Below, piece by piece: positions 17,138 through 58,564 of a DNA stretch of 59,299 bases. Numbering within the stretch: the first letter of the stretch is position 1; each line of letters starts with the position of its first letter. This DNA is from Candidatus Taylorbacteria bacterium RIFCSPHIGHO2_01_FULL_46_22b (GTDB lineage: Bacteria > Patescibacteriota > Minisyncoccia > Phycocordibacterales > DSPV01). Where the stretch lies: contig MHRF01000007.1 of the NCBI GenBank assembly GCA_001820875.1, positions 1 through 59,299 of the forward strand. The letters are read 5' to 3'. The translations under genes and the position numbers were made by a program. The notes beneath the pieces were generated by a model. It was not told the DNA's origin. It ran no database searches and was given only the letters and a program-made list of their open reading frames with translations.

Positions 17138-18007
17138 ATGCACAAATTCAGAACACGGCTACCTCTGATACTACTCGCTCTCCTTGTAGTTATCACTATG
17201 TTTATCTGGTACGTACTTTTTAATGAAGATCGGCAGGGGATGTTGCAGGTGGCGTTTCTCAATGTCGGACAAGGCGACTCGACTTTTATTGATTCACCCG
17301 CAGGTCATCAGATGCTCATTGACGCCGGCCGAGATAACACTGTGTTACAGCGTTTAAGTAATGTTATGCCATTTTATGATCGAACGATCGATGTGGTATT
17401 GGCGACACACCCCGACCAAGATCACATTGCAGGGCTGGTGAGTGTGTTATCCCGCTATAAAGTTGCATATGTGATTATGACTGAAGCGACTGCATCTACA
17501 GCGACATTTCAGGCGCTGGTGCGTGCAGTTGAAAAGAGTGGTGCAACTCTTATTCATCCTCGGCGCGGCATGGTTATTGATCTTGGTGGCGGAGTGGGTT
17601 TCAGAATACTTTTTCCTGATCGGAGTATGGCAGGAATTACCGATACTAATCTCACTTCAATTGTCGGGAAAGTTGAATATGGAAGTGATTCTTTTCTATT
17701 GACTGGAGATTCGCCGATTGCAATTGAGCAATATGAATTGTTTCTTGATCCAGATGTACTTTCAAGCGATGTATTAAAGGCGGGACATCATGGATCTCGC
17801 ACTTCCTCCGCGCCCGAATTTGTTGCTGCTGTACAACCGGCGTTCGCAGTGATATCTGCCGGCAAGGATAATTCGTACGGCCATCCGCACAAAGAAGTTA
17901 CCGACATCTTTAATAAATTTGGCGCAAAAATTTTGCGGACTGATACCGAGGGGACGATTGTATTTAAAACAGACGGCACGAATCTCTCATTTATATTAAA
18001 AAAATGA
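17138..18007 (+). CDS. ComEC-type metallo-beta-lactamase protein (stand-alone)
   Basis: Start at 17138 (MHKFRTRLPLILLALLVV...). VAFLNVGQGDSTFIDSPAGHQMLIDAG, VVLATHPDQDHIAGLV, LLTGDSP, VLKAGHHGSRTSSAPEFV. Confidence 0.92.
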   Translation: MHKFRTRLPLILLALLVVITMFIWYVLFNEDRQGMLQVAFLNVGQGDSTFIDSPAGHQMLIDAGRDNTVLQRLSNVMPFYDRTIDVVLATHPDQDHIAGLVSVLSRYKVAYVIMTEATASTATFQALVRAVEKSGATLIHPRRGMVIDLGGGVGFRILFPDRSMAGITDTNLTSIVGKVEYGSDSFLLTGDSPIAIEQYELFLDPDVLSSDVLKAGHHGSRTSSAPEFVAAVQPAFAVISAGKDNSYGHPHKEVTDIFNKFGAKILRTDTEGTIVFKTDGTNLSFILKK

Positions 18008-27442: not shown

Positions 27443-27470
27443 TGTAATTGTGCTGTCATGACTACGGCAT
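27443..27470 (+). promoter_or_regulatory. Candidate alternative-sigma promoter TGTAAT-N16-CGGCAT
   Basis: Same bipartite motif and spacing as sites at 54297, 54927 and 54106(-). Confidence 0.6.
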
Positions 27471-27480
27471 TTATTTGAGG

Positions 27481-27542
27481 AAGGTTGATTACCCCAAGGC
27501 TCCTAAGGCATTACGTTGTAAAAACTTATGGTAATCAACCTT
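27481..27542 (+). other. Perfect 13-bp inverted repeat with 36-nt loop in the leader of the DUF3494 gene
   Basis: AAGGTTGATTACC (27481-27493) / GGTAATCAACCTT (27530-27542). Confidence 0.75.
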
Positions 27543-27656
27543 TTGTAGGCTTTACACAAGCTTCGAATTATACAAGTAGCAAATACGTAAAGGTCGAAGA
27601 CACGCTACGCTAGTTTCAAAGTGTATTTACTAGTGATTAAAAAATTATTCTCAATT

Positions 27657-30278
27657 ATGAAAAAAAGAATTATTAAATTCCTTACCGTCAGTAGTTTTGC
27701 TTTCTCGGCAGTTGCGTTTTCATTTCTTGGTCTGGCGACGCCAATCGATGCTCGTGCAGCTGGTCCGGCGCTTGTTGACCTCTTGTCTGCAGGCAATTTC
27801 TCAATCTTGTCGTCTGCAGGAATTACGAATACAGGAAGCCATACTTCTGTTATAACAGGAAATATCGGCTCTAGTCCGATCTCTGCTTCTGCAATGGACA
27901 ACGTATTTTGTTCTGAAATAACGGGCACTATATTCGGTGTTGATGCGGCTTATGTAGGTAGCGGCAGCGTAACTTGTTTTGCAGGAAACCCGCCGTTATC
28001 TAATAAAACTCTCGTGGATACCGCAGTACTTGATATGGGGACTGCATACACTGATGCAGCCGGAAGAACCACCCCGACCGCAACTGAATTGGGAGCTGGT
28101 AATATCGGTGGCATGACACTTGCCCCTGGACTCTACAAGTGGAGTACGGATGTCACTATACCGACAGATGTTACTCTCTCTGGAAGTGCAGATGATGTGT
28201 GGATATTCCAAATTGCAGGGGATCTCACTATCGCTTCTGGTGGGAGTATCCCCGCGGGTATCAAGGTTGTACTTGCAGGTGGCGCTCAATCCTCGAATAT
28301 TTTCTGGCAGGTTGGCGGTGTAACTGGCGCCACGCTCGGGACATACGCGACGTTCAATGGAAACATATTGAGTGCAAAACAAGTGATCATTCAAACTGGC
28401 GCAGTGCTCAATGGCAGAGCGCTTGCACAAACTCAAGTGACACTGGATGCAAATACCATTTCGTCTCCTCCACTCCCTGATGTCAAAGTAACTATTGCTA
28501 AATATATTGATGGCGTTCCGGCTCTTGCCTCAACAACAAACAGTGCTTCATTTCCGATGAGTGCGACATGGAATGCTACCAATATTGGTGCAGGAACAGG
28601 AGGGTTTGCTATTGGCCCTGTTGGATTCAACAGTCCAAATCCCTATGAAGCAGTCACTGCCGATATGACTTCTGGGGCGAGTTACAGTACGAATGAAATT
28701 GTTGACGGTATCACTGTCGGTACCGCATGTGCTTCAGGAACTCCCTACACGCTGATTGGATATTCAACTGGCGACACTCTGCTTGCGGCCTCACTTGCAG
28801 TAGCAACGACCACCATACCGAACTTCACGAATATCACGAGCGACAAATATGTCATTGTACAAAATCATGTTTGCCCACCACCTGTCGCACCCACATTCGC
28901 AAAAGTCCATATTCTTAAATACCTTGATGGCGCGGTAGCAACGGCATCATCATCTAACAGCTACTTATTCCCCATGACCGCAACATGGTCAGCTCTCAAT
29001 CTTAGCGGCGGAGCAACCTCGACGGGGTCATATGTTCTCGGTACTAATTTCGGTGGGGCGATTGATCTCTACGGCGCAGACACAACAGATATGCAAACTC
29101 CTGCATATTACGCCACGTCAGAAGTAACCGACGATACAAGCTCTGTGCTGCCGATTGACGCTGTCTGTAGCACCGGCAAGTATCGCTTGAACGGATACCA
29201 GATGAGTACCACGAGTTTCGCTCATGCGCTCAAACAGGCAACGACCACTGATGCGATATTGCCCAACATAACTTCTGATAGTTACGTACTGGTGTTGAAC
29301 GAATCATGTCCTACACCTGAAGTTCCAGTTGCAACTGGCGGAATTGTGTTCACCAAGTATAGCGTGGGGGACAATGGAACGTTTTCGTTCACAGGTACCG
29401 GAGGTATTGGCGCGTTTACACTCACCACTGCGACAGGTAGCAGCAGTCAGGCATTCAGCAATCTTGTTCCAGGAACGTATCAGATTACTGAAGGAACATT
29501 GCCGATTGATTGGACACAGACGACAACTACCTGTTCAAGTATTACCGTAACTTCAAACGCAACGTCTACGTGCTCGATAACCAACACGAAAAGTGTACCC
29601 ACTCCAGTTTTGGGAGAAATCAGCGGTATAAAATTCGAGGATTGGGATGCGGACGGTAGTCCGTTCGAGAAAAAGTGGGAAGATCCGCTTTCTGGGTGGA
29701 CCATTTACCTCGACACAAACAACAACAGCGTGCTTGATCTCGGTGAACTTTCGACGACCACCAACAAGAAAGGAGCCTATAGCTTCAAAAATCTTCCTGC
29801 GGGCACATACTCTGTGCGCGAAGTGAATAAAACTGGTTGGATCACCATAACTCCAGTTAGTGGTGTCCACACCATCACGCTTCTTGCAGGAGAGGTAGTG
29901 AAGAATAAAAACTTTGGGAACTTCAAGCTCGGATCAATCTCCGGCATGAAGTACAACGACAAGAATGCCAATGGCAAGAAGGGTGGCAATGAAGCAGGTC
30001 TTGCTGGTTGGACCATTGTGCTCAAGAAGATAGGAGGTGCGACTGCAACGACTACAACTAACGCAAGTGGTAACTACACCTTCAGCAATCTTGGTCCGGG
30101 GACGTACAAACTTTCAGAAGTGATGCAGACTGGATGGACCCAGACTGAAAAACCAAATCCAGTTCGTATCTATTCAGAGACATCTTCTACGCATGAGAAC
30201 TTTGGTAATACCCAAAAGACTATTGTGCCAAGAGGGAATGGGTATGGCAAAGACAAAGATAACGATCGAGACTATTAG
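27657..30278 (+). CDS. Secreted DUF3494 (ice-binding-like) protein with two internal repeats, prealbumin-like and SdrD-B-like domains
   Basis: Signal peptide MKKRIIKFLTVSSFAFSAVAFSFLGLATPIDARAA; LLSAGNFSILSSAGITNTGSHTSVITGNIGSSP, TELGAGNIGGMTLAPGLYKWSTDVTIPTDVTLSGSADDVWIFQIAGDLTIASG, GGAQSSNIFWQVGG, VLNGRALAQTQVTLDANTI; C-terminal GSISGMKYNDKNANGKKGGNEAGLAGWTI repeats. Confidence 0.88.
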   Translation: MKKRIIKFLTVSSFAFSAVAFSFLGLATPIDARAAGPALVDLLSAGNFSILSSAGITNTGSHTSVITGNIGSSPISASAMDNVFCSEITGTIFGVDAAYVGSGSVTCFAGNPPLSNKTLVDTAVLDMGTAYTDAAGRTTPTATELGAGNIGGMTLAPGLYKWSTDVTIPTDVTLSGSADDVWIFQIAGDLTIASGGSIPAGIKVVLAGGAQSSNIFWQVGGVTGATLGTYATFNGNILSAKQVIIQTGAVLNGRALAQTQVTLDANTISSPPLPDVKVTIAKYIDGVPALASTTNSASFPMSATWNATNIGAGTGGFAIGPVGFNSPNPYEAVTADMTSGASYSTNEIVDGITVGTACASGTPYTLIGYSTGDTLLAASLAVATTTIPNFTNITSDKYVIVQNHVCPPPVAPTFAKVHILKYLDGAVATASSSNSYLFPMTATWSALNLSGGATSTGSYVLGTNFGGAIDLYGADTTDMQTPAYYATSEVTDDTSSVLPIDAVCSTGKYRLNGYQMSTTSFAHALKQATTTDAILPNITSDSYVLVLNESCPTPEVPVATGGIVFTKYSVGDNGTFSFTGTGGIGAFTLTTATGSSSQAFSNLVPGTYQITEGTLPIDWTQTTTTCSSITVTSNATSTCSITNTKSVPTPVLGEISGIKFEDWDADGSPFEKKWEDPLSGWTIYLDTNNNSVLDLGELSTTTNKKGAYSFKNLPAGTYSVREVNKTGWITITPVSGVHTITLLAGEVVKNKNFGNFKLGSISGMKYNDKNANGKKGGNEAGLAGWTIVLKKIGGATATTTTNASGNYTFSNLGPGTYKLSEVMQTGWTQTEKPNPVRIYSETSSTHENFGNTQKTIVPRGNGYGKDKDNDRDY

Positions 30279-30302
30279 TCTAGTTGAAGTATAAAGGTCG
30301 AC

Positions 30303-53442: not shown

Positions 53443-53574
53443 TTACAACAGAGATTTCACTATAAATACAACGAGAGCAATAACGAGGAGCGTGTGAATT
53501 AAGTTTCCTCCTACTTTGAAGCTAAATCCCAAAACCCAGAGGATGAGCAAAACAATAATAATTGTATAAAACAT
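53443..53574 (-). CDS. Small membrane protein, lmo0937-like (below the ORF track cutoff)
   Basis: Translation MFYTIIIVLLILWVLGFSFKVGGNLIHTLLVIALVVFIVKSLL*; starts 5 nt downstream of the sigma gene stop. Confidence 0.75.
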   Translation of the reverse strand: MFYTIIIVLLILWVLGFSFKVGGNLIHTLLVIALVVFIVKSLL

Positions 53575-53578
53575 GTTT

Positions 53579-54100
53579 TTAGTAAGTGAATTTGTAGAGG
53601 AGTTTAAGCTTTTCAAGTCCTCGATGTGCCTGTACTGCTATCGTGTTGCGGGATTTTCCCGTAATCAGAGACATTTCCTTTAAGGAGAGATCCTGCACAT
53701 AGCGCATGCGCATTACTTTCTGGTATGCGAGCGGGAGTCTTGCAATCAAAAGGAATGCTGCCTTCCCGTCCAATACGTTTAACAGGGTCTCTGATTCGTC
53801 CGGCGCATGTGGATCAAACCCTTCTTCAAGAAGTGAATCAAGTGACGTAGTCTTTCGTTTTCTGTATTCATCCACAATGAGGTGGTTGAGTATGTGAAAG
53901 AGAAAAGCTCTCATCATCTCGATCTTTCCGCCTCTCACCAGATATTTCCACGTTTTCATAAAAGTTTCTTGCACCAAGTCTTGCCCGCGTTCGTGATCAC
54001 GCATTTTGAAAAACGCATGTGCATTAAGCCCTCGCTCAAAATTGTAGTGAGCGAGAGTCAATTGAGATTTTCTCTCGGTATCTTGTGCGTAAGTCATCAT
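53579..54100 (-). CDS. ECF-type RNA polymerase sigma factor (copy 1)
   Basis: HAFFKMRDHERGQDLVQETFMKTWKYL, FLFHILNHLIVDEYRKRK, LPLAYQKVMRMRYVQDLSLKEMSLITGKSRNTIAVQAHRGLEKL. Start reassigned to the ATG at 54100 (54097 possible) because the promoter motif overlaps the longer ORF. Confidence 0.88.
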   Translation of the reverse strand: MMTYAQDTERKSQLTLAHYNFERGLNAHAFFKMRDHERGQDLVQETFMKTWKYLVRGGKIEMMRAFLFHILNHLIVDEYRKRKTTSLDSLLEEGFDPHAPDESETLLNVLDGKAAFLLIARLPLAYQKVMRMRYVQDLSLKEMSLITGKSRNTIAVQAHRGLEKLKLLYKFTY

Positions 54101-54105
54101 ATATT

Positions 54106-54133
54106 GAGCCGTTCCCATTCGAGTTTTATTACA
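54106..54133 (-). promoter_or_regulatory. Candidate alternative-sigma promoter TGTAAT-N16-CGGCTC (autoregulatory)
   Basis: Minus strand TGTAATAAAACTCGAATGGGAACGGCTC. Confidence 0.6.
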
Positions 54134-54296
54134 GGGGTATTACAGAGAGGTGTCCCTCATAGGAAAATAGCCTTATCCTTACACCTTTAATACATGCCGT
54201 ACCCGTTTCTTCATTGCACTGGTATTACAGTTGGATTGCCAAGGAATGAGTTGTTTTCGTACTATCATATGACACTCCCGAATCTCTTTTGTGAGC

Positions 54297-54324
54297 TGTA
54301 ACAATCTAGGCTATTTAACGGCTT
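54297..54324 (+). promoter_or_regulatory. Candidate alternative-sigma promoter TGTAAC-N16-CGGCTT
   Basis: TGTAACAATCTAGGCTATTTAACGGCTT, directly before the PAS gene. Confidence 0.6.
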
Positions 54325-54330
54325 ATGGGT

Positions 54331-54915
54331 ATGGAAAAAACCAATGTAGGCGAGGGGGGAGTTATCAAACCGATGGGGTCTGATTTTGTGAAGCGTGTGT
54401 GGGAAGAAAGCTGGACGTATATAAAGACAGTCGTAGATATCGTACGCGAACCAGTTTTGATTCTCGACAAAGATTTTCGAGTAATGGCGGCCAATGAGTC
54501 TTTCTATAGGACATTTCAGGTTGAACAGAAGGATACCGAGAAGCAGATTGTGTATAAACTTGGAAATGGGCAGTGGGACATTCCAGCGCTTCGAAAACTA
54601 CTTGAAAATATCCTGCCTAAAAATACCTTTTTCAAGGGGTTTGAGGTAACGCATGAATTTCCAGTCATCGGGCGCAAGGTTATGATTTTAAATGCACGTC
54701 AAATCCATCATTTTAAAGAAGGCGCATCCTCGGAGCATTTCCCCCCCATTATTTTGCTTGCTATGGAAGATGTGACGGACATGATGGTGGTTGCCGAGAC
54801 ATTGGCGAGTCATGCAAAACAGATTGAAAAGAGACTAACCGAACAAACAAAGAAGCTCGAGCTTCATATTGGAAAACTTGAGAAGGAGATTACTGAATTG
54901 AAGCAAAAAGCGTAA
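54331..54915 (+). CDS. PAS-domain protein with C-terminal coiled coil, no kinase domain
   Basis: DIVREPVLILDKDFRVMAANESFYRTFQVEQKDTEKQIVYKLGNGQWDIPALRKLLENILP; C-terminal heptad-like KKLELHIGKLEKEITELKQKA. ATG 54325 is also possible. Confidence 0.75.
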   Translation: MEKTNVGEGGVIKPMGSDFVKRVWEESWTYIKTVVDIVREPVLILDKDFRVMAANESFYRTFQVEQKDTEKQIVYKLGNGQWDIPALRKLLENILPKNTFFKGFEVTHEFPVIGRKVMILNARQIHHFKEGASSEHFPPIILLAMEDVTDMMVVAETLASHAKQIEKRLTEQTKKLELHIGKLEKEITELKQKA

Positions 54916-54926
54916 TTTTGATCGAT

Positions 54927-54954
54927 TGTAATGCTTAGAACCTTCAGACGGCTT
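54927..54954 (+). promoter_or_regulatory. Candidate alternative-sigma promoter TGTAAT-N16-CGGCTT
   Basis: TGTAATGCTTAGAACCTTCAGACGGCTT upstream of 55029. Confidence 0.6.
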
Positions 54955-55028
54955 CACAGGTGACAGTATACATACGGGGGTCGACTATATAAGTCTCTAG
55001 TTACTCAATACATTAAACAAAATATATT

Positions 55029-55700
55029 ATGAATAAAACAGCATATTTCTCGGTATCAGTACGTCAATTTCTTTTTGGCGTAGGAATCATCGCAGCGGCA
55101 CTGTTGGTTATGGGCGTGCCATCTTCTGCACAAGCTGCAACACTTAATCGTCAGTTAGAAATCGGAATGAGCGGATCCGATGTGACTGCGCTCCAAACCT
55201 TCCTTGCGCAGGACAATACAATCTATCCTCAAGGTTTGGTGACCGGATACTTCGGTCCCCTTACTCAATCAGCAGTCTCCAACTTCCAGAGCCGAAATGG
55301 CATAGATACTGTCGGCCGTGTTGGACCCATCACGCTTGCCGCTCTCAACATCCAGATGGATAACGGCAGTGTAGGTTTCGACAAGAGCGCACCCATGATA
55401 GGTCCCTTGAATGTGAACTTCACGAATACGACTGTTGCAATTAATTGGACTACGAATGAAAATGCATCTGCGATTCTCTACTACAGCACGTCTCCGCTTT
55501 CTATGAGTGAGGCAGGACCGAATACGGGAGTTACGATTTCCGGTTCAAGTCTACTCGTTCATACCGATCTTCGCTCATCACACTCTGCTAGCCTGACTGG
55601 ATTACAACCAAACACGACGTATTTCTACGTGGTGTATGTCAGAGATGGCGCAGGTAATGAAAGTATCACGTGGCCGTCAACTTTCCGAACTAATCAGTAG
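55029..55700 (+). CDS. Secreted peptidoglycan-binding-domain plus fibronectin-III-like protein
   Basis: Signal peptide ending SSAQAA; LEIGMSGSDVTALQTFLAQDNTIYPQGLVTGYFGPLTQSAVSNFQSRNGI; FnIII-like SASLTGLQPNTTYFYVVYVRDGAGN. Confidence 0.85.
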   Translation: MNKTAYFSVSVRQFLFGVGIIAAALLVMGVPSSAQAATLNRQLEIGMSGSDVTALQTFLAQDNTIYPQGLVTGYFGPLTQSAVSNFQSRNGIDTVGRVGPITLAALNIQMDNGSVGFDKSAPMIGPLNVNFTNTTVAINWTTNENASAILYYSTSPLSMSEAGPNTGVTISGSSLLVHTDLRSSHSASLTGLQPNTTYFYVVYVRDGAGNESITWPSTFRTNQ

Positions 55701-55797: not shown

Positions 55798-56334
55798 TCA
55801 CTGGGGTGTGGATGTGGTAAATTGCGTACGAGTGTATAAGAGTTTCAATTTCTCAAGCCCCCGATGCAACTGTACGGCAATAGAATTTTTTGACTGTCCG
55901 GTGATGAGAGACATCTCTTGGAGCGAGAGGCCTTGCACATATCTCATATGAGTCACTTTTTTATAGTTGGGAGGCAAAAGCTCAATTAACAAAAATGCTG
56001 CTTGCCCATCCAACACATTAAAGAGACGTTCAGAATTATCAACCCATGGTTCGAAACCTTCTTCGAGGAGTACCTCCAGAGAGGATACCTTTCGTTTCCG
56101 ATACTCATCAATGATCAAATGATTAAGCACATGAAACAGGAATGCTTTCATGGTGTCTATCCTTCCTCCTCTGACTAGGTAATGCCACGTCTTTATAAAA
56201 GTATCTTGTACTAAGTCTTGGCTGGTTAATTGATCACGCACCTTGAAAAATGCGTGAGCACCAAGCTCTCTTCTGTAATCGTTATATGCTGCGGTGAGTA
56301 TTAAGTTTGATTCGAGTACTTGGTAAGGTGGCAT
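55798..56334 (-). CDS. ECF-type RNA polymerase sigma factor (copy 2, paralogue)
   Basis: HAFFKVRDQLTSQDLVQDTFIKTWHYLVRGGRIDTMKAFLFHVLNHLIIDEYRKRKVSSLEVLLEEGFEP; closely similar to the 53579 product. Confidence 0.9.
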   Translation of the reverse strand: MPPYQVLESNLILTAAYNDYRRELGAHAFFKVRDQLTSQDLVQDTFIKTWHYLVRGGRIDTMKAFLFHVLNHLIIDEYRKRKVSSLEVLLEEGFEPWVDNSERLFNVLDGQAAFLLIELLPPNYKKVTHMRYVQGLSLQEMSLITGQSKNSIAVQLHRGLEKLKLLYTRTQFTTSTPQ

Positions 56335-56504
56335 ACAATTTTAATGTAAATTTAATATGAGATATTGATAATATTGTGATATATAGCTAATGTCAATCCT
56401 GTATAAGTGTTTAGTGAGTGAATAAGGTGTGTGTAACGTTAATATAACCTTAATAACAAGACTATTGTGAATTTTAATAATAGGTGCTATAAGTAAGTAA
56501 CCAT

Positions 56505-57194
56505 ATGCCTATCTTAGTTGTTGAAGACGAAAAGAAATTATCTGACATATTAAAGCGTGCCCTAAAGGGTGAGCGCTATTCAATTGATCTGGCGTTTAAC
56601 GGGGAGGAGGGTTTAGAGAAGGCCAAGCGCAATAATTATTCCTTGATTCTTTTGGATATACGACTTCCCCAAAAAGACGGTTTTACGGTTTGTAGGGAAT
56701 TGAGGCAACGACAAATTCACACCCCCATCATCATGCTTACCGCGATGGGAGAAGTTACCGACCGTATATTGGGGTTGGATGCTGGTGCTGATGACTATTT
56801 AATCAAGCCATTTAGCCTCGATGAATTGTTTGCGAGAATTAGAGCCGTGATGAGACGAAGGAGGAGCACGGAATCAGATATCATAAAAGTTTCTGATCTG
56901 GTTATGGACAGAAAGAGGCATGAGGTCACGCGTGCTGGTAAACTAATCCCGCTTACTCCTAAGGAATATAAACTTCTTGATACGCTACTTTCTCACCATG
57001 GAGAGGCGCTCACGAGAGAAAAACTTCTTAACTACGCATGGGGACCTGAATTTGTAGAGAAGGGAAACGAATTAAATGTGCATATTAAATATCTGCGTAC
57101 AAAAATAGATATCGGAAGTAAAAATCCACTGGTACACACCATACGGGGTGTCGGGTTTGTCCTAAAAGAATCGTGGCTCATTAACAGCGTGTAA
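56505..57194 (+). CDS. OmpR-family response regulator
   Basis: ILVVEDEKKLSDILKRAL, LILLDIRLPQKDGFTV, TAMGEVTDRILGLDAGADDYLIKPFSLDEL, C-terminal wHTH NELNVHIKYLRTKID...VHTIRGVGFVL. Confidence 0.96.
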   Translation: MPILVVEDEKKLSDILKRALKGERYSIDLAFNGEEGLEKAKRNNYSLILLDIRLPQKDGFTVCRELRQRQIHTPIIMLTAMGEVTDRILGLDAGADDYLIKPFSLDELFARIRAVMRRRRSTESDIIKVSDLVMDRKRHEVTRAGKLIPLTPKEYKLLDTLLSHHGEALTREKLLNYAWGPEFVEKGNELNVHIKYLRTKIDIGSKNPLVHTIRGVGFVLKESWLINSV

Positions 57195-58324
57195 TGAGAA
57201 AAAAAACACGTAACAAAAAAATCGAAGACGCATTGAAAGAGTCGGAAACGAGGTATCGCCGTCTTTTTGAAACTGCACATGACGGCATACTCATACTTGA
57301 TTCAGAAGACGGTCAAGTTACAGACGTCAATCCTTTTTTGATTAATTTACTGGGATTTTCTAAGGAAGAATTCTTAAACAAAAAATTATGGGAACTGGGG
57401 GCGGTTAAGAATTTGAAGGCAGCCAAAGATACTTTTAAAATCTTGCAGAAAGACGGCTATGTGCGCTACGAAGATCTTCCTTTGGAAACAAAAGAGGGAA
57501 AATTTATTGATGTTGAGTTTGTTAGTAATTCGTATATGGCTGGGGGAAAACTAGTGATTCAATGCAACGTACGCGACATAACTGAACGCAAAAGGATTGA
57601 TTTGATAAAAGAGTCAAAAAGGCTTCTTGAGGAAGAGCGGTCAAGAGTAGCATCCATTGCCGATACGGCACATGAACTACGTACACCCCTTGCGATCATA
57701 AAAGGTAACGTGGATCTCGCCATGCGGAGTTCGACCAAGAACTTAAAATCACCACGAAGCGTCCTCCGGTCTATAAATCATGAGATTAACCACCTCTCAA
57801 GCCTGCTTTCAGATTTGACATTAATCACTTCCAAAGCGTGGGAATTGAAAAACAGGATTACGTATAAACAAGTAGACGTCAGATCTTTGATAGCAACTGC
57901 TCTTAAAAGATGCAAGGTCATTGCATATGATAAAAATATTTCGATAACTGCGAAGAATATACCAAAGATCACTATTTTAGGGGATAAGATGTATTTGGAA
58001 AAGATGCTCCTTAATCTCATTAGGAACTCTATTATTTATGGTAATAAGAATGGTCGTACTATTATTGAGGCTAAACAATCTAAAGGTGTTTTGGTTATTC
58101 ATATAACTGATAACGGAATCGGTATTTCTAAAGACGATTTACCTCATGTGTTCGAGAGGTTTTATAGAGCAGAAAAATATCATAACTCTGGTGGAAATAG
58201 CATCGGTCTCGGGTTGTCTATCGTGAAATGGGTTGCAGAACTACATGGGGGGGAGGTAAGTGTAAAAAGTATAAAAGATAAAGGCAGTGTTTTCAGTATT
58301 TCTTTGCCAATAAAGAGTGTGTAA
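57194..58324 (+). CDS. PAS-domain sensor histidine kinase
   Basis: RRLFETAHDGILILDSEDGQVTDVNPFLINLLG; H-box IADTAHELRTPLAIIKGNVDLA; N/G boxes LLNLIRNSIIYGNK, ITDNGIGISKDDLPHVFERFYRAEK, GLGLSIVKWVAELHGG. Confidence 0.95.
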   Translation: MRKKTRNKKIEDALKESETRYRRLFETAHDGILILDSEDGQVTDVNPFLINLLGFSKEEFLNKKLWELGAVKNLKAAKDTFKILQKDGYVRYEDLPLETKEGKFIDVEFVSNSYMAGGKLVIQCNVRDITERKRIDLIKESKRLLEEERSRVASIADTAHELRTPLAIIKGNVDLAMRSSTKNLKSPRSVLRSINHEINHLSSLLSDLTLITSKAWELKNRITYKQVDVRSLIATALKRCKVIAYDKNISITAKNIPKITILGDKMYLEKMLLNLIRNSIIYGNKNGRTIIEAKQSKGVLVIHITDNGIGISKDDLPHVFERFYRAEKYHNSGGNSIGLGLSIVKWVAELHGGEVSVKSIKDKGSVFSISLPIKSV

Positions 58325-58564
58325 CCAAGCTTTTTGACTTTGTGGACTGATAATATGAAGTAGCAAATAAACAGCTATTAAGTTCACATTAAATTTATAA
58401 ACAGTTTGTAAACATCTTATGCCCTAAAAAGGGCTTTTTTTGCGTTGACTTAAGGAATTCTGTAGAGTAAATTAAATTGAGATTAAATTCTAAATTTAAT
58501 TTATTCGCGAGACAAGAAGGAAATAAATAAAGTTGGGGTGTCTTTATTAAGTAATATTTAATTT

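Follow-up and report, generated by a model that had tools for sequence, protein, structure and literature searches.

Four genes in the window (the whole 59,299-nucleotide stretch of the Candidatus Taylorbacteria contig analyzed here) are each preceded by TGTAAY, 16 intervening bases, and CGGC, and one of the four encodes an ECF sigma factor. Are these sites the promoters of a regulon that this sigma factor directs, its own gene included? We think it very likely that the sites serve an ECF sigma of the copy 1 family as promoters and that they drive an autoregulated envelope regulon, a reading that rests on sequence comparison. The genes and predicted promoters at issue are the following.

27443 to 27470, plus strand: ECF-type promoter of the DUF3494 protein, TGTAAT-N16-CGGCAT
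27657 to 30278, plus strand: DUF3494/Ice_binding plus SpaA/SdrD surface protein, likely starting at ATG 27657
53443 to 53574, minus strand: lmo0937-family membrane peptide (DUF5670), in a probable operon with the sigma gene
53579 to 54097, minus strand: ECF sigma factor copy 1, 172 aa (identified by Pfam Sigma70_r2 and Sigma70_r4_2, TIGR02937, and PDB matches)
54106 to 54133, minus strand: ECF-type promoter of sigma copy 1, TGTAAT-N16-CGGCTC, predicted to be autoregulatory (a matrix built from non-sigma sites gives it 25.0)
54297 to 54324, plus strand: ECF-type promoter of the PAS gene, TGTAAC-N16-CGGCTT (exact motif match)
54331 to 54915, plus strand: solo cytoplasmic PAS protein with a long C-terminal helix, probably leaderless, divergent from copy 1
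54927 to 54954, plus strand: ECF-type promoter of the secreted PG-binding protein, TGTAAT-N16-CGGCTT
55029 to 55700, plus strand: secreted PG_binding_1 and FnIII-like protein, the commonest target class in relatives

Exact matching finds all four sites at these coordinates and on these strands, as the original prediction had claimed, and bears out their invariant spacing and the orientation of each toward a gene start. The window contains four exact matches to TGTAAY-N15-ACGGC against 0.03 expected, and none of 100 dinucleotide shuffles reached four. Because the pattern was derived from the same four sites on which this chance test rests, independent tests outside the window weigh more. Across the genome (921 kb in 13 contigs), the pattern has seven matches and its backwards control none. 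All seven precede and point at a gene, so that the random scatter that would have refuted the prediction is not seen. The three matches outside the window are intergenic and aimed at gene starts, and an eighth site departs from the pattern at one position.

C4:41536: promoter-like site from the genome-wide motif scan, facing the gene for a 43-aa protein
C7:117464: promoter-like site from the same scan, facing the gene for a secreted or anchored protein
C13:118804: promoter-like site from the same scan, facing the gene for a secreted protein
C4:41496 to 41523, minus strand: eighth site, with C instead of A before CGGC, facing the gene for an 84-aa membrane protein

The A before CGGC had been described as invariant. 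This holds for the four window sites; elsewhere it is a preference only, found at 37 of the 56 non-sigma, non-PAS sites in relatives and missing from the eighth site of this genome. A loose match at 17322–17349 (minus strand), recorded earlier as lacking the conserved A, is present and does lack it (...GGCCGGC). When one mismatch is allowed genome-wide, 21 matches are obtained compared with 22 in the control; as this relaxed scan adds nothing over the control, the regulon of this genome appears to be small, about eight promoters. Two divergent promoter copies stand back-to-back at C4:41496–41561, with their −35 boxes 12 bp apart, between the genes for the 84-aa membrane protein and the 43-aa protein.

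Of 59 sampled relatives (Paceibacteria), 12 have an orthologue of copy 1 with at least 48% identity. TGTAAY-N16-CGGCWY occurs 35 times against 4 backwards in the 13 orthologue-bearing genomes (these 12 and our own) and 20 times against 13 backwards in the other 47. With our own genome excluded, the comparison is 28 versus 4 with the sigma gene and 20 versus 13 without it (Fisher p = 0.0135), a contrast that by itself carries only modest weight. Scanning GTDB genomes gave 80 named Paceibacteria loci with copy 1 orthologues of 56–73% identity, under labels that include Nomura-, Taylor-, Kaiser-, Zambryski-, Campbell-, Vogel-, and Liptonbacteria. These loci (1.006 Mb) contain 136 TGTAAY-N16-CGGC sites, whereas 1 is found backwards and about 3.8 are expected. 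The density applies to the neighbourhood of the sigma gene, which is over-sampled because the loci were chosen for that gene, and the invariant letters of the matrix are partly a matter of construction because the sites were collected with the pattern. The sites in relatives precede orthologues of the same genes. A 37% identical ECF gene (G016:C1) is preceded by TGTAAT-N16-CGTC, in which the geometry is kept and the −10 is different. One record labelled Draconibacterium orientale (a Bacteroidota MAG) bears a typical Paceibacteria sigma locus and is probably a misbinned contig.

Copy 1 has the ECF architecture, containing only sigma2 and sigma4 domains (Sigma70_r2 and Sigma70_r4_2). It scores above the cut-off of TIGR02937 (sigma70-ECF), and its best PDB match is SigW. 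None of the curated NCBIfam ECF subfamily models reaches its cut-off, the best being NF058625 (64.7 versus 130) and TIGR02950 (57.4 versus 148). Its conserved start codon is the one at 54097 (ATGAC), and another ATG follows in frame at 54100. When a matrix trained without sigma-gene sites was applied with a threshold above the 95th percentile of background (1.4), a promoter was predicted before about 61 of 79 sigma orthologues, and it is for genes of the copy 1 type that the proposed autoregulated class of ECF promoter is borne out. The distance from CGGC to the ATG of sigma genes is variable, typically 8 to 17 nt, and some orthologues are preceded by CGTC or CGAC instead of CGGC.

The membrane peptide gene starts 4 nt after copy 1, and DUF5670 is also encoded downstream of sigma in relatives, which agrees with the co-operonic arrangement suggested earlier. 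The namesake of the family, lmo0937, is listed in a Listeria sigma-B table (PMC2813243). The conserved neighbours of the sigma gene are of the DUF5670, PAS, PG-binding, kinase, receiver, YGGT, and GlsB types. None of these neighbours was recognized as an anti-sigma, and a divergent one could be missed. Nor do these conserved neighbours include the PhyR sigma-like receiver or the NepR anti-sigma that mark the PhyR-NepR-EcfG general stress response. A phage origin of the sigma factor was rejected, with only three weak matches of at most 28.5% identity.

The divergent PAS gene and the sigma gene occur together: a solo PAS gene is present in 10 of the 13 genomes with a sigma orthologue and in 0 of the 47 without one (p = 3.8e-9, with no correction for relatedness). 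The best Pfam evidence for the domain, PAS_8 (E 0.00057), falls just below its cut-off. An AlphaFold2 model (pLDDT 81.8) has a PAS core, an N-terminal helix, and a 45-residue C-terminal helix, and its Foldseek matches to PAS structures of NifL, short LOV proteins, and BvgS assign it to the PAS fold. This protein is the best candidate for sensing or for antagonism of the sigma factor; that it is a sensor which modulates the sigma factor is plausible, a role that is inferred without binding data. Both the PAS and the sigma gene had been proposed to be leaderless. The distances do agree with transcription starting at the ATG or close to it, and the PAS offset is fixed; the PAS start itself is more likely 54331 than 54325 because 26 aligned PAS orthologues share it and, of 25 PAS genes of relatives, 16 have their ATG 10 nt beyond CGGC. 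The two genes are apparently leaderless, with start sites that remain predictions.

Sites in the 80 loci precede the sigma gene in 41 cases, the divergent PAS gene in 25 to 26, and other genes in 56. The other targets amount to 63 proteins, among them 22 with PG_binding_1 (and 20 with an FnIII-like Pur_ac_phosph_N domain) and 11 with Ice_binding/DUF3494; also found are Response_reg (6), Transgly_assoc of the GlsB type (4), YGGT (3), DUF5670 (1), and S30AE, a ribosome-hibernation family (1). Because the same families recur in relatives, the set found in the window (PAS, PG-binding/FnIII, DUF3494, and the operonic DUF5670) represents a conserved core. The cell-surface programme envisaged in the original prediction is upheld by this comparison, as its PAS, PG-binding, and DUF3494 targets are conserved.

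A further element, GGTCGA, is found in the leaders of 22 of 55 target genes (0.27 expected), mostly 12–40 nt after CGGC. It is strand-specific, with 22 occurrences on the coding strand and 0 of TCGACC before genes with the sigma motif. Among 544 other genes, 17 also have GGTCGA in front of them; many of these belong to the same families, and some are HU-like. In the window, it is present in two leaders.

27592 to 27597, plus strand: GGTCGA leader element in the DUF3494 leader
54979 to 54984, plus strand: GGTCGA within the 5′ leader of the PG-binding gene

Another GGTCGA lies at 30296–30301, in the gap that separates the DUF3494 gene from the one that follows, and one is found upstream of another sigma-70-family gene of this genome (G000:C4). 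The DUF3494 leader (27474–27660) is long and contains a strong hairpin, AAGGTTGATTACC...GGTAATCAACCTT, followed by TTTTG (folding z −2.28 versus shuffles).

Is copy 1 the driver of these promoters or only one of their targets? The window encodes a second ECF sigma factor, next to a two-component system.

55798 to 56334, minus strand: ECF sigma copy 2, which has a class B promoter and shares about 68% identity with copy 1
56341 to 56355, minus strand: TTAA-N7-TTAA 11-bp direct repeat before copy 2
56368 to 56396, minus strand: putative sigma-70-like promoter of copy 2, TTGACA-N17-TATTAT
56439 to 56453, plus strand: TTAA-N7-TTAA 11-bp direct repeat before the OmpR-type regulator
56505 to 57194, plus strand: OmpR-type response regulator, which likely controls copy 2
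57194 to 58324, plus strand: PAS histidine kinase, partner of the OmpR-type regulator

Copy 2 or another ECF paralogue could be the main recognizer of the sites, since close paralogues (copy 2 and C10, the latter 44% identical to copy 1) could share specificity. A tree of 82 sigmas does not decide the matter; it is poorly resolved and does not split copy 1 from copy 2, so promoter class cannot be tied to clade. Some class B sigma loci also contain CGGC sites, but it is mostly at class A loci that autoregulation, the divergent PAS gene, and receiver genes are seen, and C10 has no such promoter in the upstream region examined. Moreover, two genomes in which the sigma orthologues lack the promoter (G048 and G026) contain 0 motif matches. 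Autoregulation by a CGGC promoter was not found for copy 2 or for class B genes. The sigma orthologues without a matrix-predicted promoter include the 14 of class B, copy 2 of the window among them, which have TTAA-N7-TTAA repeats, mostly with a sigma-70-like promoter. A gene for an OmpR-type regulator lies nearby at 11 of the 14 class B loci, compared with 0 of 60 class A loci; the window region 55798–58324 has the same layout. On balance, we consider it unlikely that a paralogue is the main recognizer and copy 1 merely a target, without setting the idea aside.

Additional TTAA-N7-TTAA repeats are present after the kinase gene, at 58378–58392, 58472–58486, and 58547–58561. The repeats around copy 2, the regulator, and the post-kinase region are possibly sites of the OmpR-type regulator, for which there are no binding data. 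No other Trans_reg_C protein was found in this genome.

The promoter of sigma copy 1 is accompanied by repeats of a different kind, built from the −35 hexamer itself.

54128 to 54144, minus strand: proximal tandem box TGTAAT-N5-TGTAAT, the downstream half of which is the −35 element
54213 to 54229, minus strand: distal tandem box TGTAATACCAGTGCAAT, which lies 85 bp further upstream than the proximal one and is not followed by a −10

A second TGTAAT, with at most one mismatch, lies exactly 11 bp upstream of the −35 at 37 of 41 sigma sites, compared with 0 of 25 PAS sites and 1 of 56 others. TGTAAT pairs at a distance of 11 number 49, and every other distance up to 40 has at most 4. In 247 genomes of the order, the composite TGTAAY-N5-TGTAAY-N16-CGGC is found 11 times versus 0 in the control: nine elements precede a sigma orthologue, one precedes a PG-binding gene, and one has no assigned gene. 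A distal copy of the pair is present in 35 of 55 loci (40 matches versus 0.9 in shuffles). Its distance is 85–89 bp in 29 cases and 54, 65, 74, 75, 76, or 97 bp in the rest, in phase with 86 bp at about 10.75 bp per turn (p ~0.0003, with the period left free). Some of the 11-bp shifts could be register shifts within the repeat, an explanation that does not easily extend to 54 and 65 bp. A second promoter at the distal box can be ruled out, as no conserved −10 lies downstream. The second TGTAAT and the distal pair at the sigma gene are new, in that they are not described in the searchable open-licence literature.

What binds these boxes? Pho boxes and other OmpR/PhoB sites are direct repeats of 7 + 4 bp (11 bp) that overlap the −35, and the TGTAAT tandem shares this geometry. 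The boxes could thus be OmpR/PhoB sites (CTGTAAT-N4-CTGTAAT, 11-bp direct repeats overlapping the −35) that activate ordinary promoters without any alternative sigma factor, and an OmpR-type regulator is indeed encoded about 2.3 kb away. That regulator type, however, accompanies class B genes, which bear TTAA boxes instead. The tandem is nearly restricted to sigma-gene promoters, where it has a second copy eight turns upstream, whereas 80 of the 81 other sites have a single TGTAAY and a fixed CGGC. Neither a Trans_reg_C protein nor a GerE match above cut-off is present in six composite-bearing genomes (G020, G039, G082, G108, G136, and G183; G108 is a single contig), so that the boxes are unlikely to be bound in general by a regulator of the PhoB or NarL type. 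We regard Pho-box-like activation of ordinary promoters as quite improbable.

As the box hexamer is the −35 of the regulon, the sigma factor itself or a sigma4-like protein is a candidate binder, which we put forward as a hypothesis. An ECF sigma or sigma4-type protein may act like a classical transcription factor, binding both the tandem and the distal boxes and looping its own promoter, a reading suggested by the identity of the hexamer, the lack of a −10 at the distal box, and the retention of the boxes in genomes without OmpR- or NarL-type regulators. There are no binding data, and we hold this proposal only tentatively, as something that may well prove wrong. If it is true, one −35-type hexamer doubles as promoter element and operator. 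The looping operators of gal and ara consist of two like sites on one helix face at whole-turn spacings. The sigma-gene boxes share this spacing, although looping is here an inference and the repeated unit is the −35 hexamer of the sigma factor's own regulon.

The possibility that the sites merely match by chance ahead of A+T-rich gene starts draws on the pattern having been built from four sites on which it is tested, and it is refuted by the backwards controls (0 in this genome, 1 versus 136 in the 80 loci) and by orthologous placement across many lineages, which leave it next to no credence.

The preferred reading, an ECF regulon under a sigma factor of the copy 1 family, builds on what can be read from the DNA: the sites, their spacing, orientation, conservation, and co-occurrence, the tandem boxes, and their phasing. 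The promoter code would consist of a −35 TGTAAY, a 16-bp spacer, and a −10 CGGC (CGTC or CGAC in some genomes). By inferred binding at these sites, and from inferred start points, the sigma factor would direct RNA polymerase to its own gene and the co-transcribed lmo0937-type membrane peptide, to the divergent gene for the PAS sensor, and to a few genes for secreted or membrane proteins of the envelope. Its level may be under layered control, as the −35 is half of a tandem box with a second box about 86 bp, or eight helical turns, upstream. With the boxes so phased, a binder would probably contact both on one face of the helix, and a box-binding protein could gate the autoregulatory promoter by looping, itself inferred, or by cooperative binding. 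Copy 2-type genes would instead be driven by a sigma-70-like promoter beside an OmpR-type two-component system.

In having sigma2 and sigma4 domains, a rigid bipartite promoter, autoregulation, and targets of the envelope-stress type, the system resembles ECFs of the SigW, SigM, and SigE kind (PMC8103513); its role in envelope stress is an inference. It differs from them in its predicted leaderless targets, its tandem and distal boxes, the lack of a recognizable operonic anti-sigma gene, and the lack of a curated subfamily model above cut-off. The letters differ as well. ECF promoters were originally defined by an AAC −35 and a CGT −10 (PMC8103513). Here, the bipartite N16 geometry is present, but the −35 ends in AAT (AAC in a minority) and the −10 is CGG, with CGTC or CGAC before some orthologues. 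The general stress regulon of Listeria sigma-B contains lmo0937, of the family encoded after copy 1 (PMC2813243); sigma-B, however, is not an ECF, whereas control here would be by one.

Overall, the data support, within the limits of sequence evidence, a real, autoregulated, and partly leaderless ECF regulon in which the control region at the sigma gene is unusual and helically phased. No description of an ECF regulon in Patescibacteria was found in the full text of open-licence papers, subscription papers being outside the scope of the search. To our knowledge, how genes are regulated in this group, the Candidate Phyla Radiation, is almost unexplored, as few of these organisms can be grown. 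What the analysis yields is a promoter code together with a list of targets, a candidate for the sensor, and an autoregulatory architecture in helical phase that recurs in dozens of lineages of uncultured Paceibacteria. With a purified sigma factor and a few promoters, surface and stress responses of these small-genome bacteria become testable. The PG-binding and DUF3494 targets suggest control of the cell surface, which would matter if attachment to a host is regulated, a step that is inferred.
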